The translations under genes were made by a program, and so were the position numbers. Under the pieces are notes generated by a model. It had not been told where the DNA came from. It was given only the letters and a program-made list of their open reading frames with translations, and made no database searches. DNA of 64,000 nucleotides from Acidovorax radicis (lineage in GTDB: Bacteria; Pseudomonadota; Gammaproteobacteria; Burkholderiales; Burkholderiaceae_C), in contig NZ_CP075184.1 of assembly GCF_020510705.1 (NCBI RefSeq), positions 4,216,001 through 4,280,000 of the forward strand. Direction: 5' to 3'. Shown piece after piece: positions 4,690-47,036 of this stretch; position 1 is the first letter of the stretch; the number at the start of each line of letters is the position of its first letter.

Positions 4690-5086
4690 TCACGAAGAGG
4701 AAAACCTCGCCCCCCAAAACGCCGCCAGCAGTTTCGGCGAGCTCTTGTTCCTGCTGAGAAGTAGACAACGATTGAGCCTCCGCTCACTAGGAGAGAGAGC
4801 TGGGGTGACGGCGTCACTCATCAGTGAATTCGAGAATGCGCGTCGCCCACCGCCTGCAAAGCCAGCGGTGACCCGGTTGGCTCAGGCTCTGGAACTATCA
4901 CCGCGTGACACCCAGCAACTCGCCGAACTTGCTTCGCGAGAGCGCAGTGGCATGGGGCTGAGAGTGGCCCGATCTACCCCACGCCACGTGGCGGACCTGC
5001 TACGAGACATCGCCTGCATAGGCCAGCAGTTGTCGCCCGCCCATGTTCGATCCATCCGTCAAAGCTTGGAGGTGGCGATGAAATAA
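4652..5086 (+). CDS. Cro/C1-type (XRE) helix-turn-helix regulator
   Basis: 144 residues from ATG 4652; the frame is open further upstream but that part does not look like protein. The helix-turn-helix is clear: ELLFLLRSRQRLSLRSLGERAG, TASLISEFENARRPP, AVTRLAQALEL. A helical C-terminal part follows (VADLLRDIACIGQQL, HVRSIRQSLEVAM) and may dimerise. It is divergent from the minus-strand unknown cluster and 314 bp upstream of tnsA, so it may control either. No ligand-binding domain is present. Confidence 0.75.
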   Translation: MALGYRDPIGLRDHEEENLAPQNAASSFGELLFLLRSRQRLSLRSLGERAGVTASLISEFENARRPPPAKPAVTRLAQALELSPRDTQQLAELASRERSGMGLRVARSTPRHVADLLRDIACIGQQLSPAHVRSIRQSLEVAMK

Positions 5087-5399: not shown

Positions 5400-6308
5400 A
5401 TGAGAACTGAAAAGAAGTTTTCCCCAAAAGTACTTGCTCGCTTCTTGAAAGAGGGGCGAGGCCTCGGCACGTACTCGGACTACATACCCTGGCATCGTGT
5501 CTCACGCTCAGATCCGTCGAGCCGCGGTCGATCCCATCTGCTCTTGTGGCGCGACCGCCAGCGGGAGCTGCTGTCGGATGGCGAATGGACAGGCCTTAAC
5601 TTTGCTTCGATGCTGCCAAACTTGGTTGACCTCGTCGAGCAGTTCCCAATCAACCAGGAAGATGCTGAGCATGAGTTGAGCCGCTGGCAGATTGGGATGG
5701 GAGGACGGGTCTACCCCGGCACGATGACTTTGGCACACCAGATGGGTATCAAACATCCCGTTGTGACCGACACCGACGAAACAGTTATCTGGACCAGCAC
5801 AACAGACTTGTTGCTGGTTTTAAGGACGCCCAAGGCAACAAAACTGACCTTGTTAGCAGTTTCCTGCAAGCCATATGACACGCTTACTCCACGCGCCAAA
5901 GAGCTCCTACTCCTAGAAAAAACGTACTGGCAATCGCGTGGTGTGGAATGGCTGCTGATCACACCCGAGCAATACGACAAGCGCGTCGGACTGACCTTGA
6001 AAAGCGCTTCAGCCTGGGGATTGGCTGAGCCTGCCAGCGCGACCGAGATCAACATTGCCACCCATGTCGTTCGGTCGATGCCTTTTCATCCCTATTCCGA
6101 CGTCATCGGTCGATTGACTCAGATCTTCGGTGGATCAGAGCAGCATGTGTACCTGGCACAACGGGCACTTTGGCAGGCCGTTTGGCAAGGCCAACTGCCT
6201 CTTGACCTCCGCCGTCATTGGCGCCCTCACTTGCCTTTCACACTGCTGCCGATGACGGATTTCCTCGCGCTCAATCCGATTGCATCAAGGAGGTCATCAT
6301 GTCTCTGA
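5400..6308 (+). CDS. tnsA: TnsA endonuclease of a Tn7-like transposon
   Basis: 302 residues. TnsA cuts the 5' strands at the transposon ends and with TnsB gives cut-and-paste excision. The N-terminal PD-(D/E)xK domain shows SDGE (E62), the EQFPI strand typical of the family, STTDLLL (D136) and VSCK (K157), which match the Glu-Asp-Lys catalytic set of Tn7 TnsA. The C-terminal part (from about residue 165) fits the winged-helix domain. GGAGG lies just before ATG 5400. The last 10 bases overlap tnsB, so the two are translationally coupled. Confidence 0.9.
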   Translation: MRTEKKFSPKVLARFLKEGRGLGTYSDYIPWHRVSRSDPSSRGRSHLLLWRDRQRELLSDGEWTGLNFASMLPNLVDLVEQFPINQEDAEHELSRWQIGMGGRVYPGTMTLAHQMGIKHPVVTDTDETVIWTSTTDLLLVLRTPKATKLTLLAVSCKPYDTLTPRAKELLLLEKTYWQSRGVEWLLITPEQYDKRVGLTLKSASAWGLAEPASATEINIATHVVRSMPFHPYSDVIGRLTQIFGGSEQHVYLAQRALWQAVWQGQLPLDLRRHWRPHLPFTLLPMTDFLALNPIASRRSSCL

Positions 6309-8557
6309 TGCCCAATCAGGTATTCCGCCTCGCAGGGGACGCTCTCGGTTTGAAAGCCGGACTTTTTCGAATCGTAACTGATGCCCCCGAGATCAATTTC
6401 GTCTACTGCTCACAGTTTGCCCCTTCGCACCTTTCTGAAAACAAAAGAGGCGGGCGCACGCGGCTAGAGAAAACCAAACGGTCGAAAAGGATCGTCAAAG
6501 CGCCGTTGGTAGGGCAGCTATTGAGCGTGCCTCGGCAGGCCCTCCTTGAGCTCCATGAAGCGCATGAGTTGATGCCTGTATCCCTGGAGCTCGCATCGAC
6601 CTACTACCTGCCTCTTACAGATCGAAATACAGCTGAAAAATTCGAGCGGCGATGCAATGTAATGAGCGAGTTCCTCGACCCGGAAAAGCTCAAGGAGGAA
6701 CTGCTGGTTCACGGCAATTTAGGCCGTTTGGTCCGAAATGCCATGGTGAGACATAAGGCTAGTCGGAGCTATATCTACAACCTTTGGTCATTGCTATGCA
6801 GGTTTGGTTTGACTTCGACAAGTTTACGACCGCGATGGGATCGCTGCGGCGCAAAAGGCAAGCCTCGAGACCTTGGCGAGGATGGGCGAACGAACAAGGT
6901 CGGACGGAAGACGCTGAAGCAAAGAATTAACAAACAAGCATACGGCTCTTGGGGTGAACCTATTCAGCCCGGCATGAATGCAGACTGGCGCGCCAAAATC
7001 ATCGCGGCCGACAAGCGCATACCTTCTCCAAAGCCATCGATGCGTAGACGGCACAGAGAAATCATCTCGAGCAGGTTTGTTAAAGCTATGCGCTACGACG
7101 ACGCAGGGAAGATCGTGGATGTGGAACTCAAGCAGGGCGAGTATCCAAGCTACGAGCAGGTCAAACGGGTTCTCACTGTTGAGACCAGCGCGCTAGAAAA
7201 AATTCTTCAAACAACTAGCAAAGGCCACTTTAAGCGCTCTCTGCGCGGCATGACCAGTTGCAGTTGGCAGGGTTCCCCCGGCCCTGGCCTTTTGTACGCC
7301 ATCGACAGCACCATCGGTGACATCTACCTGAGATCGGCGGTCAACCCTGAGTGGATCGTAGGACGACCGATTGTCTACATCATTGTCGATGTCTGGTCCA
7401 CGGCAATCGTTGGTTTCTATGTATGCCTGACTGGCCCCAGTTGGGACACGGCGCAGGTGAGCCTTTTCAACACAACGGCATCGCCAGCGATGTTAAGCAA
7501 CCTCTGGGGCTACGAGATGCGCCAGTCATTATTTCCATCCCCCACGCTTCCGGCGCGTCTTCTGTGTGATCGCGGCGAATACCTCTCTAAACGTGCGAAG
7601 GCCACGGGAATGAAACTGATCAGAGATATGCAGTACACGCCGCCATTTCGCCCCGACCTGAAGGGCATCGTGGAGGTCCTGCATCGCATTGTGAAGAACA
7701 CCCAGTACAACTTCCTACCTGGGGCAATGGACGCTCGACGTGTGGAATACGACCTTCGGCGCTCTAACCCAGCCGCTGCGACGATGAATGTCCGCCAGTA
7801 CACCCAATACCTGCACGAATCGTTTTTTGTCTACAACCTCACCGCGATTCGCTCAAATCGAGTTGACGCTCATATGGCCGCCGCCGGTGTGTTTCCCAGC
7901 CCTGCAGGACTCTGGAGTTGGGGCCATGCCATGGGCATCGGCTACCTGCGTGCAGCCGCGCAAGCAGAGCTGGTGACCCAACTACTGCCAGCTCGCGAAG
8001 CTCGTGTCACCCCGCGCGGCATTCGGTTCCGCGGAAATTATTACGAATCCCCGCTTGTGGAGGCGGAACACTGGTCCACCTTCGCCAGATCGTCTGGGGG
8101 TTGGGAAATTCCAGTCCAGTACTACCCGGGATCTGTGTCGACCATTTGGACACCTAACGTTTCTGGCGATGGCCTTATCGACCTCCAGATAGCTGACCAT
8201 GCAAATGCTTCACCGGAAATCGACTACGACGATATGGCTGACGCTTTTGCCTTTCAACAGCTCAAGGCCGCCGACATCGAGCACAAACGCGTGTCTGCCG
8301 CGGTACTTGGTTTGAAGCGCATGGATGCCATCCGCCAGCAATCGATTGAACAGACCCGGATAGCTCTTGATCGGTCCAGAGGCCGAGCACCGACGATCAC
8401 GGAGGCCCGTGCTATGGAAAATGAAATCGCTGCCCAGATGTTGCACTGTGAATACCGTGGCACCCGAAAAGACCGCGCAGCGGTCAGCGAAAACCATCTC
8501 AGCATGATGGAAGACATCTTTGCGGCAAAGGATAGGGAGGTGGCCAATGACCTCTAA
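6299..8557 (+). CDS. tnsB: TnsB DDE transposase of a Tn7-like transposon
   Basis: 752 residues from ATG 6299, chosen because AAGGAGG precedes it and it overlaps the tnsA stop; an in-frame start at 6218 lies inside tnsA. The RNase H-like catalytic core is visible as YAID (D336), LLCDRGE (D424) and GIVEVLHR (E459). The spacing of 88 and 35 residues equals that known for Tn7 TnsB. The N-terminal half should hold the site-specific DNA-binding domains, and the C-terminal tail likely contacts TnsC. It cuts and joins the 3' strands. It overlaps tnsC by 11 bases. Confidence 0.92.
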   Translation: MSLMPNQVFRLAGDALGLKAGLFRIVTDAPEINFVYCSQFAPSHLSENKRGGRTRLEKTKRSKRIVKAPLVGQLLSVPRQALLELHEAHELMPVSLELASTYYLPLTDRNTAEKFERRCNVMSEFLDPEKLKEELLVHGNLGRLVRNAMVRHKASRSYIYNLWSLLCRFGLTSTSLRPRWDRCGAKGKPRDLGEDGRTNKVGRKTLKQRINKQAYGSWGEPIQPGMNADWRAKIIAADKRIPSPKPSMRRRHREIISSRFVKAMRYDDAGKIVDVELKQGEYPSYEQVKRVLTVETSALEKILQTTSKGHFKRSLRGMTSCSWQGSPGPGLLYAIDSTIGDIYLRSAVNPEWIVGRPIVYIIVDVWSTAIVGFYVCLTGPSWDTAQVSLFNTTASPAMLSNLWGYEMRQSLFPSPTLPARLLCDRGEYLSKRAKATGMKLIRDMQYTPPFRPDLKGIVEVLHRIVKNTQYNFLPGAMDARRVEYDLRRSNPAAATMNVRQYTQYLHESFFVYNLTAIRSNRVDAHMAAAGVFPSPAGLWSWGHAMGIGYLRAAAQAELVTQLLPAREARVTPRGIRFRGNYYESPLVEAEHWSTFARSSGGWEIPVQYYPGSVSTIWTPNVSGDGLIDLQIADHANASPEIDYDDMADAFAFQQLKAADIEHKRVSAAVLGLKRMDAIRQQSIEQTRIALDRSRGRAPTITEARAMENEIAAQMLHCEYRGTRKDRAAVSENHLSMMEDIFAAKDREVANDL

Positions 8558-9827
8558 ACATGTCCCCCCACACGACCCGTACGCTGACAACATCTTGGTC
8601 CAAGGGCTTGGTCCAATCCTCTCGCGGCCGGAAGCTGCGAGTTCACTCGTAGTGCTTCCAAAGCGACCTCCTAAGGATATTGGGACCATTCCGCGTCACC
8701 TGCGACTGCATATGCTGATGGATGTCCGCAACTTACACATACCGAGCATTGAAGGGCTTCAGCTGTTCGAATCCATCGACATGATGATCAGGCAGAACTA
8801 CCACCATTTGCACCCCTCATCTGCGAGCACCTGGAGCAAGATCAGCGGTGAACCTGTTCAGTTCCAGCTACCGTTGAATGCTCCAGCTTTCGGAGCGGCG
8901 GTGGAGGGAGTATCAGGTTCGGGAAAGACACAAGCGATCAGAAGGTGCCTAGGTAGGTATCCCCTGCAAGTCATCAAGCATCCGTCATTTTTTCGGATGA
9001 CAAACGGCTTGCAACAGGTAGTTTGGCTTTCACTGGATGTCCCTGCCAGTGGCAAAGCAACAGATCTCGCAGCCGCACTGATGACTGCATGGAAAAAGGT
9101 CACCGGTAGTACCCGGTTCGACGAGACACTGTCGGGAGAGTGGCGCAATGGGATGCAGATGCTGGAGGAATGGCGACAAGTGGCATCGACCCATTTTCTG
9201 GGCTTGCTGCATCTCGATGAGATCCAGAATTTCTTCAAACTCTCAACACTGGATCGACGTAGACGGCGGAAGGTCGGGGAGGAACCTCCAGAGCTCAGCA
9301 TTGTGGAAGATCAGTGCATCAAATGGATCCTCACATTGATGAACACGTGGCAAATACCCTTGCTGGTATCGGGCACACCCGATGGGATCAGTGCGTTGAC
9401 CAAGCGATTGAGCAACGCCGAACGCATTGTCACCTCGGGGTATCACGCGTTCAAGCACTTTACCGATGTTGAAGACCCGGTTTTTCGACAGCAATTCCTG
9501 CCCAGGCTGGGGGTGTACCAGTATGTCGCGCGACCACTACCGATTTCGGATGAACTGGCTGTGGTCATCATGGAAAAAACGGCGGGTGTCCAACGGTTGA
9601 TCATCGCCTTATGGGTGGCCGCCCATCGAGTGGCATTTGAGCGCAAAGAAGACGATTTGCGGCTCGACGATTTCCGCGTCGCAGCGGATACCTATCTCGC
9701 TCCTGTGGGACCCGCGGTCGACGCACTGCGCAGCCAAGATCCCAAGCGGATGGGACGGTACGAAGACCTGGTCACCCGGGACCACAGCTTCTGGGGTCAG
9801 TTCTGGGGTCCAGTCAAAAGCAACTGA
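8547..9827 (+). CDS. tnsC: TnsC AAA+ ATPase regulator of Tn7-like transposition
   Basis: 426 residues from ATG 8547, preceded by GGGAGG. Walker A is GVSGSGKT (K127) and Walker B is LLHLDE (D224, E225), followed by the sensor-like LLVSGTPDG. TnsC polymerises on DNA with ATP and links the target selector (TniQ/TnsD) to the TnsAB transposase. Length is a little below the 555 residues of Tn7 TnsC and in the normal range for Tn7-like elements. The gene ends 34 bp before the convergent tniQ stop. Confidence 0.9.
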   Translation: MTSKHVPPHDPYADNILVQGLGPILSRPEAASSLVVLPKRPPKDIGTIPRHLRLHMLMDVRNLHIPSIEGLQLFESIDMMIRQNYHHLHPSSASTWSKISGEPVQFQLPLNAPAFGAAVEGVSGSGKTQAIRRCLGRYPLQVIKHPSFFRMTNGLQQVVWLSLDVPASGKATDLAAALMTAWKKVTGSTRFDETLSGEWRNGMQMLEEWRQVASTHFLGLLHLDEIQNFFKLSTLDRRRRRKVGEEPPELSIVEDQCIKWILTLMNTWQIPLLVSGTPDGISALTKRLSNAERIVTSGYHAFKHFTDVEDPVFRQQFLPRLGVYQYVARPLPISDELAVVIMEKTAGVQRLIIALWVAAHRVAFERKEDDLRLDDFRVAADTYLAPVGPAVDALRSQDPKRMGRYEDLVTRDHSFWGQFWGPVKSN

Positions 9828-9860: not shown

Positions 9861-11213
9861 TCACTGAACAGGTTCCACTGTCGCTGCCAATTGCACTGAC
9901 AAAATCTGCTTTGCTTTTCGAGCACGGGGCCGCACGCTGTTTTTGGGATTCATCCTCTTTAAGCATTTAGGCAAATTGGGGCCGCACATCCGAAGCAATC
10001 CCTCGAACTTTCGCTCAGACAGCCCAGCAACTTCTGCACTCGCAGAAAAAGAAAGCCGCCGAAGGTAGAAGGCTCTCAAGCCGACAACACGACCGATCGC
10101 CTCAGGGTCATCCGCATCGGAAAGTGTTGGAAGGCCCAAGCCGAGAAGCGCCTTTCTCACCGTGTGCGCAGGAAACTCCAATTTCTTCATCACTTCGCTA
10201 TGCGCGCCGAGGGCCTCGACGTAGAGGTCAATCAGGGTATTGTCGTCAGGCAAGTTGTGAACGCGCCGAGAACGGCGTACTGCTCGCGGCTCATCATCAC
10301 TGCAGGCGTTCAATAGCGCGTTAATCGCTTCGTCGGCACTCCCAAACAGCACGCTCAAGACCAACAAGTATGCCGTCACGGAAGACGCCGAAGTTCTTAA
10401 GTACATCACCCCGTCGATCTGGTGTAGGAACGTGCCTGGCTCCTTTTCCAGAATTCCATGGAACACCGCATCGAGCCAATGATGAGGAAACAAATCACGT
10501 AGTCGATCGCTGATCAAATCGCCCCTACTCTGCCCAGGATTGGTCTTAAACCCGAGCGACCGGCCAAGGTCATTCAACATGGGGACAACTAACGCGACAC
10601 TGAAGGGCTTTGGTTGATCGTAAAAAGTGGCCGCCAGATCGAGGAACCTTTGCACATATCCGTTCTGTAATGCCTCCTCTGTCCACACGTATGGGATTGA
10701 TTCACCGCTTCCGACGAACTGAGTTGGCGAGTGCAGAAGTGGATCCCCAGTGGACACGAAAGACAACGGTGTCCTGTGCTTCGGACACCATAGCTGCCCT
10801 GGTATTTGGTGATCCCGGCGCCAATAGCTAACCCCATGAAAGTGGACGTCAGCAGTCACACAGTCTTTGCAGAAGTACGCTGCGTGGTACGTCTTCTGCA
10901 TCGCTGTGTAGTTGAGTGCCGTGCCTTCTCCCTCACTTCCATGAGCAACCTCGGGGTGATATGAGGTGATTCCTCGTCGCAACGGCAAGGTGGTATGCCG
11001 CTGTGCAAATTGAACTTCGGACATTCCCGCCATCTGACTCAGTAGTGCATGGACGGTCAGCTCCCGTCTGCTCGCTCCTGGATGTCCAAGGTGCGCTGCC
11101 ATGGAGTCCGTCATTTCCTTCAGATGCTTGTAGCCGTTGACTCTCATGATCCGGCCGAGATATCCGCGATCCAACTCCTCCGGCAATGGCGCAGGCTGCA
11201 CGAGCATGGTCAT
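9861..11213 (-). CDS. tniQ: TniQ-family target-selection protein
   Basis: 450 residues from ATG 11213; the ATG overlaps the TGA of the upstream regulator gene (ATGA), and GGAGAGCG precedes it. The hallmark TniQ zinc-binding pattern is visible: C-x2-C (FCKDC), YWRRDHQIPG, then C-x2-H (LWCPKHRTPL). TniQ/TnsD proteins recruit TnsC to chosen targets. A helical C-terminal half differs from the TnsD encoded next to it. The element therefore has two target selectors, perhaps one for glmS and one for another pathway such as mobile DNA (inference). Confidence 0.85.
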   Translation of the reverse strand: MTMLVQPAPLPEELDRGYLGRIMRVNGYKHLKEMTDSMAAHLGHPGASRRELTVHALLSQMAGMSEVQFAQRHTTLPLRRGITSYHPEVAHGSEGEGTALNYTAMQKTYHAAYFCKDCVTADVHFHGVSYWRRDHQIPGQLWCPKHRTPLSFVSTGDPLLHSPTQFVGSGESIPYVWTEEALQNGYVQRFLDLAATFYDQPKPFSVALVVPMLNDLGRSLGFKTNPGQSRGDLISDRLRDLFPHHWLDAVFHGILEKEPGTFLHQIDGVMYLRTSASSVTAYLLVLSVLFGSADEAINALLNACSDDEPRAVRRSRRVHNLPDDNTLIDLYVEALGAHSEVMKKLEFPAHTVRKALLGLGLPTLSDADDPEAIGRVVGLRAFYLRRLSFSASAEVAGLSERKFEGLLRMCGPNLPKCLKRMNPKNSVRPRARKAKQILSVQLAATVEPVQ

Positions 11214-11572
11214 GAACGCTCTCCTTGAGATCGGGAAACAGGTGTCGAATGTTTCAGCACAGCAAGCGAACGGATGACAGCTGCCAAGGCTTTGGCATCT
11301 GACGCAGAACCATCCCAAGTCGCTTGAAGTGCCTCAATCAGGTCGTGGTTGCTGCGCACAGCATCGGCGCTGACTCCGCCCTCGAAGCGCTCAACGAAAA
11401 GGCACACCTCTTCAAACAAGCGGGAAGCCCTTATGCCCTCCCCTTTGAGGATGCGACTAACCTGCGATTGACTGGCCCCCACATGGGCAGCGATATCGGC
11501 CTGGGCGATTCCATGCGCCGTGCAGATGCGGCGCGCGTTAGCTGCGCGCGCTCTCACTTCTGATTCAATCAT
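11210..11572 (-). CDS. Small Cro/C1-type regulator coupled to tniQ
   Basis: 120 residues. The helix-turn-helix is IAQADIAAHVGASQSQVSRILKG near residues 22-44, with a helical C-terminus. Its stop overlaps the tniQ start, so both are made from one transcript. Palindromic AT-rich repeats cover its own start region, which suggests autoregulation. Small regulators next to target selectors are common in Tn7-like elements and may limit when the selector is made (inference). Confidence 0.8.
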   Translation of the reverse strand: MIESEVRARAANARRICTAHGIAQADIAAHVGASQSQVSRILKGEGIRASRLFEEVCLFVERFEGGVSADAVRSNHDLIEALQATWDGSASDAKALAAVIRSLAVLKHSTPVSRSQGERS

Positions 11573-11638: not shown

Positions 11639-13381
11639 TCAGCGAAAAAGGTCCTGGGAGGGGAGATGTGCAGTCAACGCCGCCTGGATCGCCTCAAGGG
11701 TGCGGGGCAACCGTTGCAGAGAAGCCCGCTTGGCCCGGAGATCAGGTATTTGCTGGCACAACTGCCAGAAGTGGATGCGGCGCACGCCCCGCTCCTCCGT
11801 AAGGTGCAACGCTGCTTCACGAACCAAGCTGCGTAGTTGTTCGTCTCTGGCTTCCCAATCCACTACTGAGGGCCTCGGACGCAGCGAAGCTGGTAGCAGG
11901 TCGGGCTTGTTGGCATCCAGCCAGGCGCGGTCGTTCCGGTAGAGCCACATGTAGGTGCGCGGGTCCAGTTGGCGCATCCATTTGATCCCGAGACTTCCCG
12001 AGGACTGCAACAATTGGAGCCACAGTGCTCGCGAATGGGCTCTCGCTTTTGCGCTTCGTGCCTCAGACCAATCTGCATGCAGCTTTGCGTCACTGAGCAG
12101 CAAGCGGCTGATGCTCCCGACGGAGACTCCGGCTTGAGAGGCCGCTTTTTCCTTGTCAATCCCTCTGCGTAGGTCTCGGATTGCTTTGGCACGCACATTT
12201 GTGGACAGCTTCTGTGGCCGACGTGAAATCGCTATCCCAGCCTTTGCCGCCCAGACGAGCGCTGTTTGCGGATCGACCCCAACCAATCTCGCCGCCTTGC
12301 GCACTGATTGCCCCTCGTCCTGAATGAGGCTACATAGGCGGTCTATTCGCGGGTCAACGACTGGCAATTTGGCTAGAACATCGTCCTGGGTGGGTGCGCG
12401 CTTGTGGGCGTCCTCAGATTTCAATGCGCAGTCAAACCGTTGGGCATCGCCAAACAGCCAATGGATGAGCAACAGGTGCCTGAGCGGGTGCGTGCCAGAG
12501 CGAGGTGGCCTCAACAATCGGCCCAATTGCATTGCCATCCCCTCCTCGTCTTCGGCCAGCGAATCGAACTCCGGGATGCGCCTGAGCGGCTCGCAGTAGT
12601 TGAGGAAGGCAGTCGCGATCTGTCCAGTGCGGAAGCTGGCCACACCGGCAATCCAACCGCGCGCCTGCAGTTCCGGGCGGTAGACCTCGTGCAGCTTCCC
12701 TAACAGTAGTGGTTGATGCTCCGCTGATTGCACAAGGTGTTCAATGAGTTCGGCGAGGCTCAGTAACACGGAGGACGAAACGGTCTCGATGGGCGCCACG
12801 CTAGCGGGATTCAATTCGCTCAAGCGTGGCAAAAGCCATTGGAAGCGCTCGACTCCATTGGCTTTCAGGGCAGATTGCAGCAGTGGTTGTTTGTGTGTCG
12901 TGCACTTCCACACACCCGGGAACTGGTGCTTCAAATGCCAATAGGCCCACCCCGTCTCGCGGAGGTCCTGTTCCATGCATTGCGGGCAAGCTTTGAGGGG
13001 ATGATTGGCGCGAAAGCGACTGGTAAGGATGCCAAGGCGCAGCTTCAAGTGGGCGACACTGGCGCTGGACATACACGCGACTGCATTTTCAGTCTCGCCT
13101 GGAGGAGCGAAGGCTGCATAGAACTTGAGTAGTGTCCGCTCCCTCGCTATGAAATCGACTTCTCCAAGCAATGCATTCGTGCGCTGCGAGAAGGCACCAA
13201 GACTGTTGGGTAAATCATGGTGGGTACCAGCACGTGCGCTGCCGAAGATCAGTTGGCAGGTTTGCGCAGATGTGACGTGCCCCCAAAGCTGGTGATGACG
13301 GCTAACAAGACTGAAGAATGTTTCGTCTGGCAGCCAGGACAGCAGTTGGTACTCGGGAAAGAGCCTGTCCGTTTCTGGCAT
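11639..13381 (-). CDS. tnsD: TnsD-type target-site selector (TniQ domain plus TnsD C-terminal domain)
   Basis: 580 residues. The N-terminal TniQ domain has the zinc-binding pattern C-x2-C (CPQC), AYWHLKHQFPG and C-x2-H (WKCTTHKQPL) near residues 131-168. The C-terminal half has two helix-turn-helix-like repeats (SVRKAARLVGVDPQTALVW; EKAASQAGVSVGSISRLL) and the TnsD signature around RQLDPRTYMWLYRNDRAWL. TnsD proteins of Tn7 bind the 3' end of glmS. glmS borders this island at 45,087, which fits this protein as the attTn7 selector. The minus-strand gene is 33 bp upstream of the regulator operon region. Confidence 0.88.
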   Translation of the reverse strand: MPETDRLFPEYQLLSWLPDETFFSLVSRHHQLWGHVTSAQTCQLIFGSARAGTHHDLPNSLGAFSQRTNALLGEVDFIARERTLLKFYAAFAPPGETENAVACMSSASVAHLKLRLGILTSRFRANHPLKACPQCMEQDLRETGWAYWHLKHQFPGVWKCTTHKQPLLQSALKANGVERFQWLLPRLSELNPASVAPIETVSSSVLLSLAELIEHLVQSAEHQPLLLGKLHEVYRPELQARGWIAGVASFRTGQIATAFLNYCEPLRRIPEFDSLAEDEEGMAMQLGRLLRPPRSGTHPLRHLLLIHWLFGDAQRFDCALKSEDAHKRAPTQDDVLAKLPVVDPRIDRLCSLIQDEGQSVRKAARLVGVDPQTALVWAAKAGIAISRRPQKLSTNVRAKAIRDLRRGIDKEKAASQAGVSVGSISRLLLSDAKLHADWSEARSAKARAHSRALWLQLLQSSGSLGIKWMRQLDPRTYMWLYRNDRAWLDANKPDLLPASLRPRPSVVDWEARDEQLRSLVREAALHLTEERGVRRIHFWQLCQQIPDLRAKRASLQRLPRTLEAIQAALTAHLPSQDLFR

Positions 13382-17773: not shown

Positions 17774-17860
17774 ATGGCTCTCATCAATGCACTGCGCGTC
17801 TTGATCAAGGTCAAGCATCAAGAGTCGACTGACAGGCGATCTATGCAGGTGCTCGGGTGA
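17774..17860 (+). CDS. 28-residue peptide coupled to hxsB
   Basis: ATG 17774 follows a very strong AGGAGGGGG ribosome site. The 28 codons (MALINALRVLIKVKHQES...) end in TGA at 17858-17860, which overlaps the GTG start of hxsB (GTGA). An in-frame TGA lies upstream, so this is not simply an internal start of a longer frame. It may be a leader that couples translation to hxsB, or the stump of hxsD, the small gene that usually accompanies hxsB-hxsC. It does not resemble the part of HxsD I can recall. Confidence 0.4.
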   Translation: MALINALRVLIKVKHQESTDRRSMQVLG

Positions 17861-19296: not shown

Positions 19297-20422
19297 AGTG
19301 CCTGCCGACCTCGATGAGAGATGCGGTGCGCACGTGCGTCGGGTGGTGGATTTCGAGGGCTTTGCGGCTCAGTGGGAGCCGTCTCTCTATTTCTTGGTGC
19401 GAGTCCAGAGTCCCGACGAAAGGCGTTCCATTGAGGACTTGCAGCGTACCGGCCTCGATAACCTCGCTTGGGCCGTAAGCGATCAGCTGGAGATTGGGGA
19501 CATCGTTGTCGCGCGCCCATTCACGGGAGAGTTGATCGTCCTGCTGCGAGCAACTGACACCCATCACACGCTGTTCCTCACAAATCGATGCAACAGCAAT
19601 TGCCTGATGTGCTCCCAACCGCCAACCAAGGAAGACGACGGGTGGCTCGTTGAGGAAGCCTTAGAGGCCATCTCCCATCTGAATTGGCACCCTCGAACCA
19701 TCGGCCTCACTGGTGGTGAGCCATTGCTGCTGGGCGCAGGCCTACGGCGGATTCTGGATGCCATTGGTCACCGTCTTCCCCAGACGGCAGTGGAAGTTTT
19801 GACCAATGGCCGGTTGTTTGCAGATGCAACTGTCGTGGAGGAGGTTCTATCGGGCCTCAGTACGAAGGTTCGTTGGTTGGTGCCGCTGTACGGGCATGCC
19901 AACTTCCTGCATGACTTTGTTGTGCAGGCCCCCGGCGCCTTTGACGAGACGATTGATGGATTGCTCACGCTCCAGGATCACCAACAGGAGATCCAGTTGC
20001 GCTCCGTGTTGATTTCTCCGGTCTTGGAGGTTCTGCCGGAGCTGGCCCTGTTCGTCGCCCGAAACCTCCCATTCATCCGGGAGTGGGCATTGATGGGGTG
20101 CGAGCCGATCGGGTTTGCCCTAGCTAATCGAGAAGCTTGCGAAGTGGACCTGATCGCTTGGGGCGCAACACTGGAGCAAACCCGCAGAGTGCTACGCACC
20201 TACCGGATTCCCCACGTCTGGATGAACACGCCTTTGTGCGCGTTACCTCAGCCTCTTTGGCCTCAGGCGCAGAAGAGCATTTCAGATTGGAAGAACGTCT
20301 TTGCACCTGAATGTGAGGGTTGTGCAGCAAAGAAGAACTGCTCTGGACTGTTTGCCTGGTATGAGCGAGGCTGGAAACCTGCGCCCCTAAGAACAATTGA
20401 GACAAGCGAGGTCAATTTATGA
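19289..20422 (+). CDS. hxsC: His-Xaa-Ser system radical SAM maturase HxsC
   Basis: 377 residues from ATG 19289, which overlaps the hxsB stop (ATGCGTAG). The open frame extends upstream but only inside hxsB. The radical SAM motif is C101-x3-C105-x2-C108 (NRCNSNCLMC), followed by LTGGEPLL. Near the C-terminus C-x2-C and a further Cys (PECEGCAAKKNC) suggest an auxiliary iron-sulphur site. The partner is HxsB and the presumed substrate HxsA. The stop overlaps the hxsA ATG as ATGA. Confidence 0.88.
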   Translation: MRRVPADLDERCGAHVRRVVDFEGFAAQWEPSLYFLVRVQSPDERRSIEDLQRTGLDNLAWAVSDQLEIGDIVVARPFTGELIVLLRATDTHHTLFLTNRCNSNCLMCSQPPTKEDDGWLVEEALEAISHLNWHPRTIGLTGGEPLLLGAGLRRILDAIGHRLPQTAVEVLTNGRLFADATVVEEVLSGLSTKVRWLVPLYGHANFLHDFVVQAPGAFDETIDGLLTLQDHQQEIQLRSVLISPVLEVLPELALFVARNLPFIREWALMGCEPIGFALANREACEVDLIAWGATLEQTRRVLRTYRIPHVWMNTPLCALPQPLWPQAQKSISDWKNVFAPECEGCAAKKNCSGLFAWYERGWKPAPLRTIETSEVNL

Positions 20423-34962: not shown

Positions 34963-35610
34963 TCACTTAAAGAGCTGGACAATTTCTTTCCAGTTTCCCA
35001 AGACGACTGAGATTGCTGTCGATGCAACGATACTGATGACGGCCCAGCGAACGGTGGCCTCTACACCTGACCTCCCTTCAAGCTGGACAGGCCGGATGAT
35101 GTTCTTGTACACATCCTCGTATTTATCAGCCACTGCGGAAACGCCGTTAAGGTATTTCTCTATTTCACCAATTTGTCGAAGAAGAGGTCTCAGAAGCTCG
35201 TTCTCCTCCGCAGACTTTCGAGCAGCACCGAGCTTCTCTCCTGCGCCGTGGATTTCTGACTTTAGGCGATCGGGGTCGAAGGTCAGTATCTCGTTGATGC
35301 GGCGCCTCAGACTTTCCAGATCGTCTTCAATCTCTTTGAGAAGGCCGGCAAGATGACCTGCGGTCTGCTTCGTGCAGCCGACCATGATGATTGGTGCGAA
35401 GCCGTCCTCGCCAATCTCTTCATAGTAGACGATGCCTGCCTCGCTAAGCTCGTAGAGATGTTGGCTAAGGACATTTCCGTTCGAGTACAACGCGCTAATT
35501 TCTTCGAAGAACTCGTCGCGTAGCTTGTCGATGGAGCCTTTCTCGTCCGCATATCGAATGAAGGACGCGAGGAGCCGCGCGGTCCTTGTCTTACTGATCT
35601 CTGTTTTCAT
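34963..35610 (-). CDS. Cassette-encoded hypothetical protein with C-terminal membrane segment
   Basis: 215 residues. The N-terminal part (VLSQHLYELSEAGIVYYEEIGEDG) looks like a winged-helix strand-turn. Then comes a coiled-coil-like region (LAGLLKEIEDDLESLRRRINEIL ... EENELLRPLLRQIGEIEKYL), and a C-terminal hydrophobic helix (AVISIVASTAISVVLG). No family is recognised. It is the gene of the third cassette, between two attC sites. Confidence 0.65.
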   Translation of the reverse strand: MKTEISKTRTARLLASFIRYADEKGSIDKLRDEFFEEISALYSNGNVLSQHLYELSEAGIVYYEEIGEDGFAPIIMVGCTKQTAGHLAGLLKEIEDDLESLRRRINEILTFDPDRLKSEIHGAGEKLGAARKSAEENELLRPLLRQIGEIEKYLNGVSAVADKYEDVYKNIIRPVQLEGRSGVEATVRWAVISIVASTAISVVLGNWKEIVQLFK

Positions 35611-40115: not shown

Positions 40116-41984
40116 TCAGTCGGGAACTCCGCCAACGACCTCATCGGCGTTGAACCATTCTTCCTGAAGCACGAAGCTTTGGACTCGGTCTGGGGCCGAA
40201 GAATATGCAACGAGTGCGAGGCTTTCCTTTGCACGGCTCGCCGTCACATAAAACAGCCGCTTGGTGCTTTCAACGGTTTTCTCACCCGCTGCTTTGCCCC
40301 CGAACAGGTCTTCGTACTTGAATAAAAAACCTCTTGCCTCTGCGTCATCCATGATGACCATGACACGATCAAACTCAAGCCCTTTCACGCCTTGATGCGT
40401 GTCGAAATGCGCGTCCCCCGAGAGGTACTCCATCATTGGACCGATCTGAGAGAACGGCGCATTCAGAAAGGACTGAATGGCAAGCGCCCGTTCGGTCTGC
40501 CGGTCCTCGCGCTCATCCTCATCGGAAGCTACGGCTTCAGCACTTTCCTCTGACGCGCTGGCTTGAAGGGATTCAGGAATTTCGAGGAGATTGTGTTTTG
40601 CGACGCAGCGCAGAACCTGAAGCAAGGTCGGATTGGCCCCGTCTTTCCAAAGCCCCATCAACACGTCAATTGAAGCATTCACCTGCTTCAGATGTTCCTG
40701 GGTGTCTTTGGCCGCGCGCAAGACCTCTTGCGTGAGGCGCGGGGAGTAGGCTTTAGCGATACGCGCAACAGCAAACCGATCATTGTTCTGCTTGGCATTC
40801 ACGAGCGAAAGCACTTGGTCAGAGAAGAACCGCGATGCAGGCAGCGTCCCGTCGAGGAAGCTGGTACGCCAACCCTCCACGTCATAGAGCGGAGAGAAAG
40901 CATCAAGGAAGCCCAAGCGTGATGCTGCCATCCGATGCTCAAGTGTCAGGGTCTTGATCGTCTTGGGTTCATTCCACTTTTCATCGCCCGTCGTCCTCGA
41001 CATATAGGCTGCGATTTTCTGTTCGGCGGCGGGCTTGTTTGCGAGGTCACTTGGCAGGATGAAGAGACGAACGACGCCATCAACTGCGGCGGCGATGGGC
41101 TGCTGGTGTTGCTGGTCTGTTGAGCTACGGACCTTGTTGATCAGGGCAATGACCCGTTTGGGGCAACGGTAATTGAGCTGCTTTCCGGGGGTCGCCCAAT
41201 CCGGGGGAAGTCCCTGCCCCAGCCCTTCTTTCCCGTCGTTATAGATGCGCTGCATCATGTCTCCGAGAAGGCCAAGAATGAACTTCCCTTTGAGCTTGGC
41301 TTGAACCGCAAACAACGCATCGATCAGATGCTTGTTGGTGTCCTGACTCTCGTCGATGAGCAGGATGGGGTAGCGGCCCGTGAGGATGCTTTGCATAGCA
41401 GGCTTGGTGTGGAGGAAATGCGCCGTCAGTTGCAAGACTTCAGAATGATTCAAAGCATCGCGCCCGCGATTGTCCCCGGTCGGGCTGTACGTGAATGACT
41501 TGACGTTTGGCAGGTTCTGGAGGCGCTTCGTTTTGGACTCAATTTTTCTGAGGCGATCCGTCGATGCCTTCGTGCCCTTTCGACCCTTGGTCTCATCCAC
41601 GTTCAGCTTCGCGATGTCTTCTGCCAGGTCAACGCGCAGCCATTCACGGATATCGTGGTTGAGGCCTTCGATCAAAGACCAGGCAAAGCTATGAATTGTG
41701 CGAACGTCGATCAGCGGATCAAACAGCAGCCGCCTCTTGATTTCGTCACTGGCTGCATTCGTGAAAGTGATGACCCCCACGCGCTGTCCTTTGACCCGGA
41801 GACGCTCGCTCAGAGTCGTCTGCACATGCTGTAGCGCAGTCACAAGGGAGCGCGTCTTTCCAGAACCAGCACCAGCAAAAAGGAAGAAGCTCTTCGGGGT
41901 ATCCAGATTCAAGCAAGCCGCGATCTCTTCATCAACATGAGCATCAGCGATATCCGTGCTCGCAACGGCTGTCTGGCGACTCAT
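40116..41984 (-). CDS. gajB: Gabija-type UvrD-like helicase GajB
   Basis: 622 residues. Superfamily 1 helicase motifs are visible: Q-like start, Walker A FLFAGAGSGKT (38-44), motif Ia GVITFTNAAS, DExx box LLIDESQDTN, motif III LLGDMMQRIY, motif V HQGVKGLEFDRVMV and motif VI LFYVTASRAKESL. In Gabija GajB is activated by DNA ends produced by GajA. The length is somewhat above the roughly 500 residues of the best-studied GajB. The start overlaps the gajA stop by four bases (ATGA), so the pair is one operon. Confidence 0.85.
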   Translation of the reverse strand: MSRQTAVASTDIADAHVDEEIAACLNLDTPKSFFLFAGAGSGKTRSLVTALQHVQTTLSERLRVKGQRVGVITFTNAASDEIKRRLLFDPLIDVRTIHSFAWSLIEGLNHDIREWLRVDLAEDIAKLNVDETKGRKGTKASTDRLRKIESKTKRLQNLPNVKSFTYSPTGDNRGRDALNHSEVLQLTAHFLHTKPAMQSILTGRYPILLIDESQDTNKHLIDALFAVQAKLKGKFILGLLGDMMQRIYNDGKEGLGQGLPPDWATPGKQLNYRCPKRVIALINKVRSSTDQQHQQPIAAAVDGVVRLFILPSDLANKPAAEQKIAAYMSRTTGDEKWNEPKTIKTLTLEHRMAASRLGFLDAFSPLYDVEGWRTSFLDGTLPASRFFSDQVLSLVNAKQNNDRFAVARIAKAYSPRLTQEVLRAAKDTQEHLKQVNASIDVLMGLWKDGANPTLLQVLRCVAKHNLLEIPESLQASASEESAEAVASDEDEREDRQTERALAIQSFLNAPFSQIGPMMEYLSGDAHFDTHQGVKGLEFDRVMVIMDDAEARGFLFKYEDLFGGKAAGEKTVESTKRLFYVTASRAKESLALVAYSSAPDRVQSFVLQEEWFNADEVVGGVPD

Positions 41985-44329
41985 GCGGCGGCCTTCGTAG
42001 TCTCGGCGGCGCTTTCCAAAACTTCCGCCGGTTCAAGGGCCTTGCCTGAGATGCCATCTTCTTTGCGCTTAAGCTGTGCAGCGAGCCAAAGCAATCCGCT
42101 GTCAATGTAGGCCGGTACTTTCATCGTGTCGATCTCGTCGCTGTCGAGAAGATCCATGGTGAATTCAGCCTTGCCGCCTTTCGCCAAGTCAGTAAGCATT
42201 CGGGGAGCGAGATCGCCGAGATCAGTCGCTGCATCAAGACTTTTACGAATCCTTCCCATCAGGCCCGTCCCCTCCATCTTCTGGAACAAGTCGAGGTTTT
42301 CATAGACCAAGGCGTCTTCAAACGTATTGGCAAGCGCCTCTTTGTGTTCCTTGGATTTGAACTTGGCTGAGATAGGCTGCTGGTAGGCGACGCGAATGCC
42401 GTAGCCGCTTGGATCGTTAAGGACGATCTCTTCGGGTTTCTTGTCGAGCAGCGTGTCCAGATCCTCGACCGCAGGAACCCAGGTCTTGAGCGTCTCATTG
42501 CGGGCCTTGAGGTTTGAGTCACGCACCGGGGGAACCGACACTCCAGCAGCATCCTTCGCGTCAAGGTCTGTGATGATCAACGTGTTCAACCCAAGATGCT
42601 CAAGCAAGGACTTCAGCCTGTGCGCATGACTTCCGCCGATCTCAAGCCAGGTGATGTAGCAGCGACGCAGATACTCGTACTGGTCACGCTTGCGAACGAA
42701 GTGGGGGACAAGAATGCGCTCGGCAGGCCCTTCGACCAGCACAGCGCCATCAGCAAAGAACAGATCACAGTGCGTCGCCTTCAGGTATCGCTTGACGAAG
42801 CGGCCTGTCTCTTCCCCGCTTCCGAAGGTCTCGGATAGGTTGACAACACATGACACCGGCACGGAGCCGCCCACCGCCTTGACAGGAAGGCGACGGAAGT
42901 ACCGCAGGGAAGCGAAGTCGGCTTCGTGTGCGAGATGGCTTGAGTGTGTACTGATGACAAGCTGTGTGCGGAGGTCCTTCGCATCCTTGAGTTTGTCGTG
43001 CTTGCGCAAAACGTCATAGGCTTGCTTGATGAAGACTTGTTGGACTTGTGCATGCAGATGCGCCTCCGGCTCTTCAATCAGGACAAGATGAAGCGGTGGA
43101 CGAAGGGCTTCTTCGGGGTCGGTTGACTTGGAAGCCTTGCCAACCTTCATCCACTTGTCGCGGAAGCTCATCAGCGCAAAGACAATTGAGACCAGATTTT
43201 GATACCCAAGGCCGTTTGAGTCTTCAGGGAGGCGGTGCGCAAAACCTTCTCCCTCCTTGAGGTGCGTGGGGACTTCATATTGAACCGCCGATGCATGGTT
43301 CAAACCGTCGATGGGCTTGATGCTTGTGGTGATCGTAAGTTTCGGGTCGGTGACGCCGGGATAGCCGATGTCCTCAAGTTCTTTCAAAGCCGTTGAAAAG
43401 CAGGTTGCCAAACGTTCGCCAAATGCGGCCTGAGCGCTATGGAGTGCCTGCAAAGCCTCCAGATCTTTTGGCTCGGGCTGATCGAAGGGGTCAAGATGTT
43501 GGGTGTAGTAGTTGCGAAGCTGGCTGGACAGCTTCTTGCCACCCCGCGAGTTCCCGTCCTCCTGTGAATCGTCCCCTCGATTTGAAGCTTTAACAAATCC
43601 AAATCCGCGTTGTGCGCTGATTTCATCAATGCGAATGATCTTCTTGAACGGGTCTCCTTCGATTGGCTCACTGCCAACCGGAAGGGCCTGAGGAGTGGCA
43701 ATACCGTTCTTTGGCGTCACGAGCTTTTCGGGGTCAAGGAGATAGGCTCGAACCTCAAAGGATGAACGCAGCCGAAGTGACAGAAAGTCCATCATCGACT
43801 TCGGCCACAGCGCGAACCCTTCCACGAGCGGGATCGCTGCTGCCGTGGTGCCCTCTGCCGATGCCGGCACAGTGCCCATGACAGAAGCAGCGGAGAGCTT
43901 GACCGCCAGGTACTCTTGCTTCAGGGCTTGGACATCCTTGGGTTCGTAGCGCAGTCGAACGCCGATATGCGCCCCCGCCCAATCGAGGGTGGGAAGAATC
44001 TTCTGAACATAGTGAAGATCCTCTGTCGGAACATTCAGCCAGACATCGAGGTGCGGCAGAACTTCATCCCAATTGAACTCTGCTTCTTCCTCTCCGGGAG
44101 TGGACATCTCCCAGGCGATGGCCATCGCATCAAGCTTGGCCCAATGGAACAAGGTGAAGTCATTGATGGAAAAATCAGTTCGGTCAACAAGGAAGTGGCG
44201 AAGCGCAACCATGGCCGACGTTTTTCCGCTGTTGTTCGCGCCCACGAAAACTGTCGTTTGCTCGGCGAAGTCCACCCGTACGGCTTGAAGCTTTCGAAAG
44301 TTGCCGATCTCTACATGTTGAATGTGCAT
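41981..44329 (-). CDS. gajA: Gabija-type OLD-family nuclease GajA (ATPase plus TOPRIM)
   Basis: 782 residues. The N-terminal ABC-type ATPase has Walker A VGANNSGKTS (30-38) and LVLIEEPEAHLHAQ (Walker B plus D-loop) near residue 410, then STHSSHLAH (H-loop). The C-terminal TOPRIM domain shows LVEGPAERIL (Glu) and IITDLDAKD (acidic pair). GajA nicks DNA when nucleotides are depleted during phage infection. It is longer than the roughly 580-residue reference GajA, so it may be a divergent OLD class 2 nuclease. With gajB it forms a probable phage-defence operon. Confidence 0.85.
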   Translation of the reverse strand: MHIQHVEIGNFRKLQAVRVDFAEQTTVFVGANNSGKTSAMVALRHFLVDRTDFSINDFTLFHWAKLDAMAIAWEMSTPGEEEAEFNWDEVLPHLDVWLNVPTEDLHYVQKILPTLDWAGAHIGVRLRYEPKDVQALKQEYLAVKLSAASVMGTVPASAEGTTAAAIPLVEGFALWPKSMMDFLSLRLRSSFEVRAYLLDPEKLVTPKNGIATPQALPVGSEPIEGDPFKKIIRIDEISAQRGFGFVKASNRGDDSQEDGNSRGGKKLSSQLRNYYTQHLDPFDQPEPKDLEALQALHSAQAAFGERLATCFSTALKELEDIGYPGVTDPKLTITTSIKPIDGLNHASAVQYEVPTHLKEGEGFAHRLPEDSNGLGYQNLVSIVFALMSFRDKWMKVGKASKSTDPEEALRPPLHLVLIEEPEAHLHAQVQQVFIKQAYDVLRKHDKLKDAKDLRTQLVISTHSSHLAHEADFASLRYFRRLPVKAVGGSVPVSCVVNLSETFGSGEETGRFVKRYLKATHCDLFFADGAVLVEGPAERILVPHFVRKRDQYEYLRRCYITWLEIGGSHAHRLKSLLEHLGLNTLIITDLDAKDAAGVSVPPVRDSNLKARNETLKTWVPAVEDLDTLLDKKPEEIVLNDPSGYGIRVAYQQPISAKFKSKEHKEALANTFEDALVYENLDLFQKMEGTGLMGRIRKSLDAATDLGDLAPRMLTDLAKGGKAEFTMDLLDSDEIDTMKVPAYIDSGLLWLAAQLKRKEDGISGKALEPAEVLESAAETTKAAA

Positions 44330-44793: not shown

Positions 44794-44815
44794 AAGCGCC
44801 TCAACTGAGGCGCTT
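44794..44815 (-). terminator. Rho-independent terminator for leftward transcription from glmS
   Basis: AAGCGCCTCA-AC/GT-TGAGGCGCTT is a perfect hairpin. On the minus strand it is followed by TTTTTTATTG. It would stop transcripts entering from glmS or from the repeat region. Confidence 0.85.
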
Positions 44816-44817
44816 GG

Positions 44818-44961
44818 AACCCATCGGTGCAGGTGCGCTGCACCATTACAGGCTCTATTTACAGGTTACAGAGTTTATTTTTACGATCAACCCATCAGTA
44901 CTGGTGCGCGGCACCCTTGGGGCTTTATCTACAGGCTGCAGAGCTATCTTTACGACCCACA
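44818..44961 (-). repeat. Tandem repeat, probable Tn7-like transposon end with TnsB sites
   Basis: Two imperfect copies of a 71-bp unit (44,818-44,888 and 44,889-44,958), each starting AACCCATC. Inside, the motif TAT-Y-T(T)-TAC occurs four times, near 44,855, 44,877, 44,926 and 44,946; within each pair the spacing is about 20-22 bp, like TnsB sites. The minus strand at 44,961 begins TGTGGGTCGTAAAGATAG, similar to the Tn7 terminus TGTGGGCGGACAAAATAG. An alternative reading is a structured RNA ending at the adjacent terminator. Confidence 0.6.
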
Positions 44962-45086
44962 GTGCATGAGTCAAATTTGTAGAAAATTCCCACAATCGAA
45001 AAATAATTGTTGAAATCTAATTTTTATACATGAAAAAGTCCATAACTTTAGTCAATTAAGGAAAGAGCCGCCCTGGAAATCAACAC

Positions 45087-47036
45087 TCACTCCACCGTCA
45101 CACTTTTCGCCAGGTTGCGGGGCTTGTCCACATCCGTCCCCCGCGCGCATGCCGTGTGATACGCCAGCAGCTGCAGCGGCACCACGTGCAGCAGTGGGCT
45201 TAAGGGGCCGTAGTGTTCAGGCATGCGGATGACGTGAATGCCTTCGCTGCTGTCGATGCGCGTATCGGCATCGGCCAGCACATAGAGCACACCGGCGCGC
45301 GCGCGCACTTCCTGCATGTTGCTCTTGAGTTTTTCCAGTAACGCATCGTTGGGCGCTACGGTGACCACCGGCATGGCGCTGGTCACCAGGGCCAGGGGGC
45401 CGTGCTTGAGTTCACCGGCGGGATAGGCCTCGGCGTGGATGTAGCTGATTTCCTTGAGCTTGAGCGCGCCTTCGAGCGCTATGGGGTAGTGCATGCCCCG
45501 GCCCAGGAACAGGGCGTTTTCCATGCGGGCAAAGTCTTCAGCCCAACTGATGATCTGCGGCTCCAGCGCCAGCACGGCCTGCAAAGCCACGGGCAGGTGG
45601 CGCATGGCTTTGAGGTGGGCGGCTTCCTGGTCTTCGCTGAGGCGGCCTTTGGACTGGGCGAGCGCCAGGGTCAGCAAAAACAGCCCGGCCAACTGGGTGG
45701 TGAAGGCCTTGGTGCTGGCCACGCCGATCTCGACCCCGGCACGCGTGATGTAGGCGAGCTTGCATTCGCGCACCATGGCGCTGGTGGCCACGTTGCAGAT
45801 GGTGAGCGTGTGTTGCATGCCCAACGACTGCGCATGGCGCAGCGCAGCCAGGGTGTCGGCGGTTTCGCCCGACTGGCTGATGGTGACGACAAGGGTGCGC
45901 GGGTCGGGCACGCTGGTGCGGTAGCGGTATTCGCTGGCCACCTCCACCTGCGTGGGGATGCCGGCGATTTCTTCGAGCCAGTATTTGGCGGTGCAGCCGC
46001 TGTAGTAGCTGGTGCCGCAGGCCAAGATGAGCACGCGGTCGATCTCTTTGAACACGCGCCAGGCCGCTGCACCGGGCTCGCCATGCTGGCCCACGCCATC
46101 AAACAGCTCGGGCACGATGCCCTCGACGCCTTCCAGCGTGTCGCCGATGGCGCGGGGCTGCTCGAAGATCTCTTTTTGCATGTAGTGGCGGTAGGGCCCC
46201 AGCTCGGCCGCGCCGCTGTGGGCGCGCACGGTGCGCACGGGGCGCTGGAGGGGTGTAAGTGCTGCGCCGTCCTTGCCCACGATCCAGTAGCGACCCAGTT
46301 GCAGGTCCACCAGATCGCCTTCTTCGAGGTAAACGATCTGATCCGTCACCCCGGCCAGAGCCATGGCGTCGCTGGCCAGAAAGTGCTCGACGGACGGTGA
46401 CGCCTCTGCGGCAGCGCCTTGGCCCTGCCCCACGCCCAGAATGAGCGGCGAGCCTGCGCGCGCGCCCACCACGCGGTGGGGCTCGTCCTTGTGGATAACG
46501 GCAATCGCATAGGCGCCTTGCAGCTCGGCCACGGTGGCCCGCACGGCATCGAACAGGTCGCCGTTGTAGTGGCTGTCCACCAGGTGAGCAATGACCTCGG
46601 TGTCGGTCTGGCTGACAAACACGTAGCCTCGCGCCTGCAGCGTTTTGCGCAGCTCTTCGTGGTTCTCGATGATGCCGTTGTGCACCAGCGCCACACGGCC
46701 CGCAGCGGTGGCGGCGTCTGCACCGGCGCCGTGGCTGAAATGGGGGTGAGCGTTGTGCAGCGCTGGTGCGCCATGGGTGGCCCAGCGGGTGTGGGCGATG
46801 CCCGTGGCGCCGTCGATGTGTTCGGTGTGCACCTGTTCCAGCAGTTCGGCCACGCGGGCGGTGCTGCGGGCGCGCTGCAAGCCGCCCTGCGGTGTGCCGT
46901 GGCGCGTGGCGTCCAGGCTGGCAGCATGCACGGCCACTCCGCAGGAGTCATAGCCCCGGTATTCAAGCCGCTGCAGGCCCTGGACGAGGATGGGAACGAT
47001 GTTGCGCGTGGAGACCGCGCCGACGATGCCGCACAT
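45087..47036 (-). CDS. glmS: Glutamine-fructose-6-phosphate aminotransferase GlmS
   Basis: 649 residues from ATG 47036, because the mature enzyme must start with the catalytic Cys (M-CGIVGA). It makes glucosamine-6-phosphate from fructose-6-phosphate and glutamine, the first step to UDP-GlcNAc. The N-terminal Ntn glutaminase (TRWATHG, NHEELR) and two SIS domains ([56 protein letters not shown]) are intact. The C-terminus ends KSVTVE, the conserved stretch whose DNA is bound by TnsD. The Tn7-like island begins just past the stop. Confidence 0.97.

Follow-up and report, generated by a model that had tools for sequence, protein, structure and literature searches.

The 64,000-nucleotide stretch of the Acidovorax radicis genome analyzed here, referred to as the window (G000:C1:4216001-4280000 of a genome of 4,995,154 bases in one contig), contains the attachment gene glmS, putative transposon ends next to its stop codon, a Gabija system as cargo directly inside these ends, and a tns module (Table 1). 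The glmS product shares 80-99% amino acid identity with the GlmS proteins of relatives over the compared parts. Genomes are given by handles, G000 being the genome of the window.

Table 1. Features of the window discussed in the text (window coordinates)
Feature	Position	Strand	Evidence or remarks
Small ORF upstream of tnsA, part of the module	4,523-5,086	+	Conserved module layout
tnsA	5400..6308	+	Pfam Tn7_TnsA-like_N, E 8.7e-6, just at cut-off
tnsB	6218..8557	+	PDB 7pik (Tn7 TnsB), E 1.9e-42; ORF overlaps tnsA
tnsC, AAA ATPase	8520..9827	+	Pfam AAA_22; position; 59-73% identity in four related modules
tniQ	9861..11318	-	Pfam TniQ
Small ORF between tniQ and tnsD	11210..11572	-	73-92% amino acid identity in G005, G008, G047, G048
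tnsD, presumed glmS-targeting protein	11639..13381	-	Pfam TnsD PF15978 and TniQ
gajB (Gabija)	40116-41984	-	PADLOC GajB, E 2.4e-236; cargo directly inside the stacked ends
gajA (Gabija)	41981-44329	-	PADLOC GajA, E 9.8e-279; cargo directly inside the stacked ends
Intrinsic-terminator-like hairpin	44794..44815	-	AAGCGCCTCAGTTGAGGCGCTT + TTTT; reads out of glmS, just inside C
C, intact C-type end (TGATCGTAAAAATAAACTCTGTAA...)	44817..44889	-	First 24 nt identical in G012 and G354
B, worn C-type end inside A, ~69 bp	44890..44958	-	Homologous to C; site noticed in the first-pass annotation
A, outermost glmS-proximal end (CCTTAATTGACTAAAG...), ~103 bp	44959..45061	-	Terminus of a 43.71-kb element in G007 and G013; 24-25 bp after glmS in five genomes
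Spacer between glmS stop and end A, 25 bp	45062..45086	-	CTCTT at 45063-45067
glmS, attachment gene, 649 aa	45087..47036	-	Pfam SIS and GATase matches; stop codon 45,087-45,089

The tns module comprises a small plus-strand ORF, tnsA, tnsB and tnsC in that order, and a convergent set of tniQ, a small ORF and tnsD. This arrangement is common to G005, G008, G047 and G048, whose TnsA proteins are 60-65% identical to that of the window. As in Tn7-like transposons, tnsABC is accompanied by TniQ-domain target selectors, here both TniQ and TnsD. TnsB has no match in Pfam or NCBIfam, and its true start may lie near 6299; a search for its relatives across the genome contigs returned a single locus. TnsD is 80% identical to that of G008, where the island end is found 24 bp after glmS. 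Lying on the side far from glmS, the tns operon is oriented toward that gene, as it is in G007, G008 and G013. G152 and G235 have a layout like that of G007, at distances of up to ~47 and 70 kb from glmS, provided that their tns genes are part of the element at that gene, and no ends of these two elements were found. The TnsB frame of G047 (G047:C3:182923-185238) holds one TGA, so that module may be broken.

The first 24-25 bp after the glmS stop differ among the window, G007 and G013, after which all three read CCTTAATTGACTAAAGTTATGGACTTTTT..., and the region of end A extends over 152-153 bp at 99% identity in both relatives. The inverted counterpart of end A in G007 (CCTTATTCGACTAATGTTTTGGACTTTTT) lies immediately before tnsA; together the two delimit an element of 43,715 bp with GAAAC, a 5-bp duplication, at both flanks. 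G013 carries the same element, 43,714 bp long, with GAGCT at both flanks. Because these two insertions carry different 5-bp duplications, the terminus of A is fixed. By comparison with these elements, the outermost end at the locus is A, which begins CCTTA at 45,061, 25 bp after the glmS stop, the distance of an attTn7-type insertion; A lay 24-25 bp after glmS in all five genomes in which it was seen (G000, G007, G013, G043 and G057). End A of the window and the distal end of G007 match at 25/29 positions, with a local alignment score of 21 against a mean of 10.6 and a maximum of 20 in 2000 shuffles, a narrow margin.

A first-pass annotation of this DNA had described a Tn7-like island ending downstream of glmS and carrying a TnsD gene. 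The tnsABC/tnsD island and its transposon ends were recovered, and the terminus that it proposed, 44,961, was displaced. There the minus strand does read TGTGGGTCGTAAAGATAG, 126 bp from the glmS stop, and is followed by four TAT-Y-T(T)-TAC blocks (44,856-44,862, 44,876-44,884, 44,926-44,932 and 44,945-44,953) in two pairs ~20 bp apart. A sequence resembling what we take to be the Tn7 terminus, with a transposase-site-like repeat behind it, would suit an island end formed by insertion at that distance. It is nevertheless highly improbable that the island ends at 44,961. The boundary marked by 5-bp duplications in G007 and G013 lies 100 bp further out, which refutes such an end for these two elements, and the intervening 100 bp are 99% identical in the window, G007 and G013, while the glmS spacer differs. 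GTGCA, the duplication proposed at this site, is part of that common stretch, identical inside the G007 and G013 elements, reads GTCAT in G043, and is not a target duplication. The site is thus ~100 bp inside the island, and the distance from glmS that had appeared unusual is replaced by the usual 25 bp of end A. The likeness to Tn7 is probably accidental, because TGTGGG at 44,961 straddles a junction, consisting of the last three bases of A (TGT) and the worn start of B; the equivalent in G043 reads ...GACTGT and, across the junction, TGATCGG. A second TGTGGG at 44,994, previously considered a possible older end, lies inside end A and may be the second transposase site of A.

A single transposon with matching ends from here to the left limit, as also envisaged at first, was not borne out, no matching inverted end being found leftward. 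With up to 3 mismatches allowed, TGTGGGTCGTAAAG matched itself and nothing else in the window, where 3.16 matches would be expected by chance. In the 40 kb on the left, the 18-mer matched three times with 5 mismatches, twice inverted (TGTGGG being absent from both) and once in the same sense; all were taken as chance. None of A, B and C showed a distal partner when the window and the adjoining 120 kb on the left were scanned with patterns of 18-36 nt, mismatches allowed; one 8-mismatch match at 48,187, right of glmS, was likewise attributed to chance. Of the repeats across positions 1-45,200, those listed (25 of 46 inverted pairs, 20 of 55 direct families) included none that paired with the ends. 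A genome-wide partner search, run with the 277-bp end region alone, returned 15 matches at E up to 10, namely the region itself and then matches at E 0.099 and weaker. Among 399 genomes of the family, the sole match to the A-type region at E 0.01 was that of the window; G007, G013, G043 and G057 carry A, are absent from this result, and presumably lay outside that draw.

In G007, the A-type element carries two genes with TniQ domains and a TnsB that is 27-28% identical to that of the window (28% over 265 aa). When the genome of the window was searched with A-type TnsB, just two matches were obtained, the window TnsB (27%) and that of a third element (28%). Since both are distant, the outer end and the tns genes of the window belong to different transposases, that of end A not having been found in this genome, and the island as a whole is probably not movable by its own tns genes, unless their TnsB accepts foreign ends. 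The A pattern, with up to 10 of its 29 positions allowed to mismatch, had no match in the more distant A-type elements of G152 and G235 (TnsB 46% and 41% identical); in G235, C1:1959527, just outside tnsA, holds a C-type end with 4 mismatches.

Behind A, positions 44,890-44,961 and 44,818-44,889 are homologous (alignment score 36; the best of 2000 dinucleotide shuffles reached 18), and the four TAT-Y-T(T)-TAC blocks belong to these two copies of one unit, B and C. In G012 and G354, 24-mers identical to the first 24 nt of C lie directly 24 bp beyond the stop of glmS, which identifies C as a transposon end of its own type; from the start of C inward, G012 and the window are 94% identical over 135 bp. 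G043 has A, then one C-type unit starting TGATCG and worn further in, then a hairpin as in the window and G012. The order in the window is A, worn B and C, B running to GATGGGT and C starting at the next base, with zero gap. C is identical to the C-type consensus and B has diverged from it; being worn, B is probably a passenger. Comparison with relatives thus resolves B and C as two C-type ends buried behind A, and the edge of the island as three stacked ends.

A, B and C might instead form one long composite end of a single transposon family, the repeats being its own transposase sites and no stacking having occurred. The A-B junction is constant in the window, G007, G013 and (at 87%) G043, and A and B moved as a unit in G007 and G013, both as a composite end would predict. 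We consider it improbable, given that in G012 and G354 the terminus beside glmS is C by itself, that the distal A end of G007 has A-type sites and no C-type unit in a scan with the C pattern, and that B has diverged from a consensus to which C is identical. Whether A normally comes without B is a point on which G152 and G235 are silent, since the A pattern has no match there.

The first-pass annotation had held that a repeat present downstream of glmS in strains lacking tns genes would speak against a transposon end. Such repeats do occur, in G043, which has A with a C-type unit and lacks matches to TnsA and TniQ, and in G012, which has C and lacks a TnsA match. Because A is the terminus of elements with duplications in G007 and G013, we read them as solo ends left behind, which are still transposon DNA, and retained that part of the original claim; for G043, this reading needs the extra assumption of loss, which counts against it.

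When the C-type region was compared with the 399 family genomes, with no more than 2 candidates per genome scored, nine matches at E 1e-4 were obtained, including that of the window. The other eight lie beside glmS in G012 and G354, elsewhere in G064, G353 and G077, and in G197, G278 and G001, where the match is due to the terminator hairpin alone. An IS21-type element near C-type ends (G354, plasmid pACDW039_1) was considered as the owner of C and rejected, that IS having its own borders. In the plasmid search, one record had a C-type end: NZ_AP029020.1 at 320122 (L110 20001), which is pACDW039_1, a mobilizable plasmid of Acidovorax sp. DW039, where the C-type end follows exactly after the first 11 nt of an E33 end. 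A further search, at E up to 10, gave 18 records, and among the 12 listed, the others had short matches only. The plasmid stretches examined held no second end on pACDW039_1, and neither of the two TnsB proteins had a plasmid match reaching 60% identity. This Acidovorax plasmid is a possible vehicle. The hairpin just inside C is not in itself above chance (one found, 0.9 expected in shuffles) and lies at the equivalent place in G012 and G043; its likely role is to end glmS transcripts once an insertion had displaced the native terminator.

We compared the DNA downstream of glmS in 40 genomes including that of the window. A match was found in 36, and 30 loci were returned: that of the window, 23 from the same genus, one of which has just 23 nt of flank and is unjudgeable, and six from outside the genus. 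Ends of type A, C, E8 or E33 were present 22-25 bp after glmS at 11/30 loci, namely the window and 10/23 same-genus relatives, and at 0/6 loci outside the genus. Judging from these sequences, several end types have used one insertion point after glmS and formed tandem arrays. Very probably, the region marks where a large island meets glmS, an island assembled as different Tn7-like transposons inserted repeatedly 22-25 bp downstream of the gene, with TnsD as the presumed guide.

Ends of the E8 type (TATTC[CT]GG...TTAAAGTCGTAAAC) can be assigned to the tns module of the window by association in three genomes with the same module, lying 24 bp after glmS in G008 and on the tnsA side in G047 and G048; in G005, none of the end types appeared across the 20 kb scanned. 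In the genome of the window, an E8 end oriented toward the window occurs at G000:C1:4158494, ~57.5 kb to its left. The five bases before this end, AAGAG, are the CTCTT of the glmS spacer in reverse complement, suggesting insertion of an E8 element that duplicated CTCTT and has kept its distal end; the match was found in hindsight and has a chance of ~1 in 1024 per offset tried. The island would then probably span ~102.6 kb, from 4,158,494 to 4,261,061, the proximal E8 end (none at up to 6 mismatches of 24) having been lost, and because that end is missing, the extent is supported by a single end and a 5-base match. Two distal-looking E8 ends, separated by 8.6 kb left of the window (G000:C1:4149880-4158485), speak against this reading by their orientation. 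In G008, no distal E8 end was found to 180 kb. Comparison of the 62.5-kb left flank with the glmS-downstream stretches of nine relatives, a search for the empty site on that side, yielded no match >150 bp at E 1e-20.

Other genera of the family show stacked ends as well. Patterns for the four end types were run on 17 stretches, two of them from the genome of the window; as several were chosen for holding an end, the results are not an estimate of frequency. A C-like end lies 23 bp after glmS in G064 (6 mismatches), with an E8 end ~100 bp inside, and in G197 (7 mismatches), with an E33 end 52 bp inside. The background of the C pattern per shuffled 800-nt flank was 0.003 at up to 7 mismatches and 0.13 at up to 9. 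In G077, where the 40 kb examined contain no glmS, a C end lies 61 bp inside an E33 end. G007 and G013 have an E8 end 611 bp in, behind A and B, the outer A having moved as one unit with B and the E8 end inside. Back-to-back junctions were also found, at 4158485/4158494 in the genome of the window, 164620/164626 in G012, 163542/163552 in G064, and 3381473/3381480 and 3404591/3404596 in G353. In G013, the GAGCT duplication of A takes in the first base of an older, back-to-back E33 end, which is direct evidence that a younger element can enter on the glmS side of an older one.

These arrays point to a possible history of the locus. An older E8-type element carrying the tnsABC, tniQ and tnsD genes of the window would have inserted first, with the duplication CTCTT. 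Elements of the C and A/B types would have followed between the E8 element and glmS, TnsD guiding each newcomer between glmS and the last resident. Later losses would have removed the bodies and distal ends of the newcomers, together with the proximal E8 end, the first 10-100 bp of each newcomer staying behind while its body disappeared, so that the proximal ends remained stacked as A (103 bp), B (69 bp) and then C.

Chance deletions may have produced the stacks, bodies having been lost at random and the products kept because the outer end works or is harmless. A hot spot is expected to collect tandem insertions that then decay, and the outer ends were cut at differing lengths (11, 52, 61, 69, ~100 and 103 bp). 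Random deletion should, however, often cut into inner ends as well. The inner end has kept its first six bases, TGATCG, at four C-type junctions (B-C in the window, G043, G077 and the plasmid), and the inner ends of G064 (E8, 2 mismatches) and G197 (E33, 1 mismatch) are near consensus, although patterns starting at or near the first base favor intact ends. We regard chance deletion as quite possible, if somewhat short of probable. The exactness of the inner termini suggests a join made by a transposase, and pruning may have been performed by the transposases themselves through adjacent deletion. In such self-editing, the proximal end of an inner element would attack DNA near glmS or near the end of another element on the same chromosome and delete what lies between, its exact terminus becoming joined to the first 10-100 bp of the outer end. 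We put this forward tentatively and hold it to be doubtful; the independent junctions number at most six, and the bias of the patterns applies here too. If it were true, an island would shed rival transposases while keeping their short ends, and could later be moved by several transposases in trans; the A-B-cargo element, which in G007 and G013 has moved intact and with its buried E8 end, would be a mosaic in motion.

Tn7 proper has a TGTGGGCG terminus, and its right end is next to glmS. The island resembles Tn7 (attTn7, TnsABC+D) in TnsA, TnsB (PDB 7pik), TnsC and TniQ/TnsD, in insertion just after glmS, and in the 5-bp duplications seen in G007 and G013. It is not Tn7 proper: instead of a terminus like TGTGGGCG, end A starts CCTTA, the right end is not the one at glmS, TniQ accompanies TnsD where Tn7 has one TnsD, and three ends are stacked on the proximal side. 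Parks and Peters reportedly described in 2007 genomic islands formed by successive Tn7 insertions, with tandem elements and decayed copies at glmS, as here.

By the convention in the available text of PMC11406308, the glmS-proximal end is the left end, unlike in Tn7, because the tns operon is on the distal side. That text reports that Tn7-like elements vary in the side of the att site and that some ends are not TGT, so the orientation and the non-TGT end found here are not new in kind. As in the left-att elements described there, the glmS site here and the tns promoter are on opposite sides; that portion makes no mention of stacked ends. Tandem tniQ/tnsD genes are reported at 1,048 loci in the available part of PMC10293859, and both the window module, with tniQ and tnsD, and the A-type element of G007, with its two TniQ-domain genes, resemble these dual elements. 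A difference is that the sole Cas-like match here, among the proteins scanned, is a weak one to Csa3 (E 0.003, 34963-35610). The accessible portions of PMC10293859, PMC8649781 and PMC11406308 describe Gabija as common cargo (338 transposons with the OLD nuclease) and nested mobile elements. In the literature found on Tn7-like elements, including these portions, we found no description of stacked proximal ends, and among the papers listed none related to Tn7-like elements in Acidovorax. As far as these sources extend, islands at glmS are already known, and the recurrent stacking of ends is a variant that we did not find in them.

Tn7-like islands bring defense genes, here Gabija, to a fixed and safe site. 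Islands are normally delimited by pairing one left with one right end, and the stacks show that this pairing can fail. The end beside glmS may belong to an absent transposase, and the tns genes of an island need not be its movers. If transposases do make the stacks, cargo would have a route for changing its carrier.

Several further observations were made in and around the island. Two adjacent radical-SAM genes (Pfam Radical_SAM; window 17857-20422) gave weak matches to prokaryotic viperins (E 5.8e-4 and 2.7e-6). A 1321-aa protein (13634-17599) with DUF4365, TPR and PIN-TPR-GreABC domains, weakly matching PADLOC PDC-M02A (E 8.4e-7), is a candidate defense protein. Upstream of the tns module, a 254-nt direct repeat occurs at 1808-2061 and 3011-3264 with 72% identity between copies. 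In the glmS spacer, TGTTGATTTCCA (45074-45085) equals the first 12 bases of the border of the IS21-type element of G354 and is maybe a solo IS end or a chance match. Left of the window, ~11.6 kb (G000:C1:4130428-4142035) show 82-84% identity to array-adjacent DNA in G012 in the opposite sense relative to glmS, possibly through an inversion. Outside the window and not at glmS, G000:C1:15523-22245 holds a second Tn7-like tnsABC-tniQ set with a 651-aa gene, related to one in G015 at ~45% TnsB identity.
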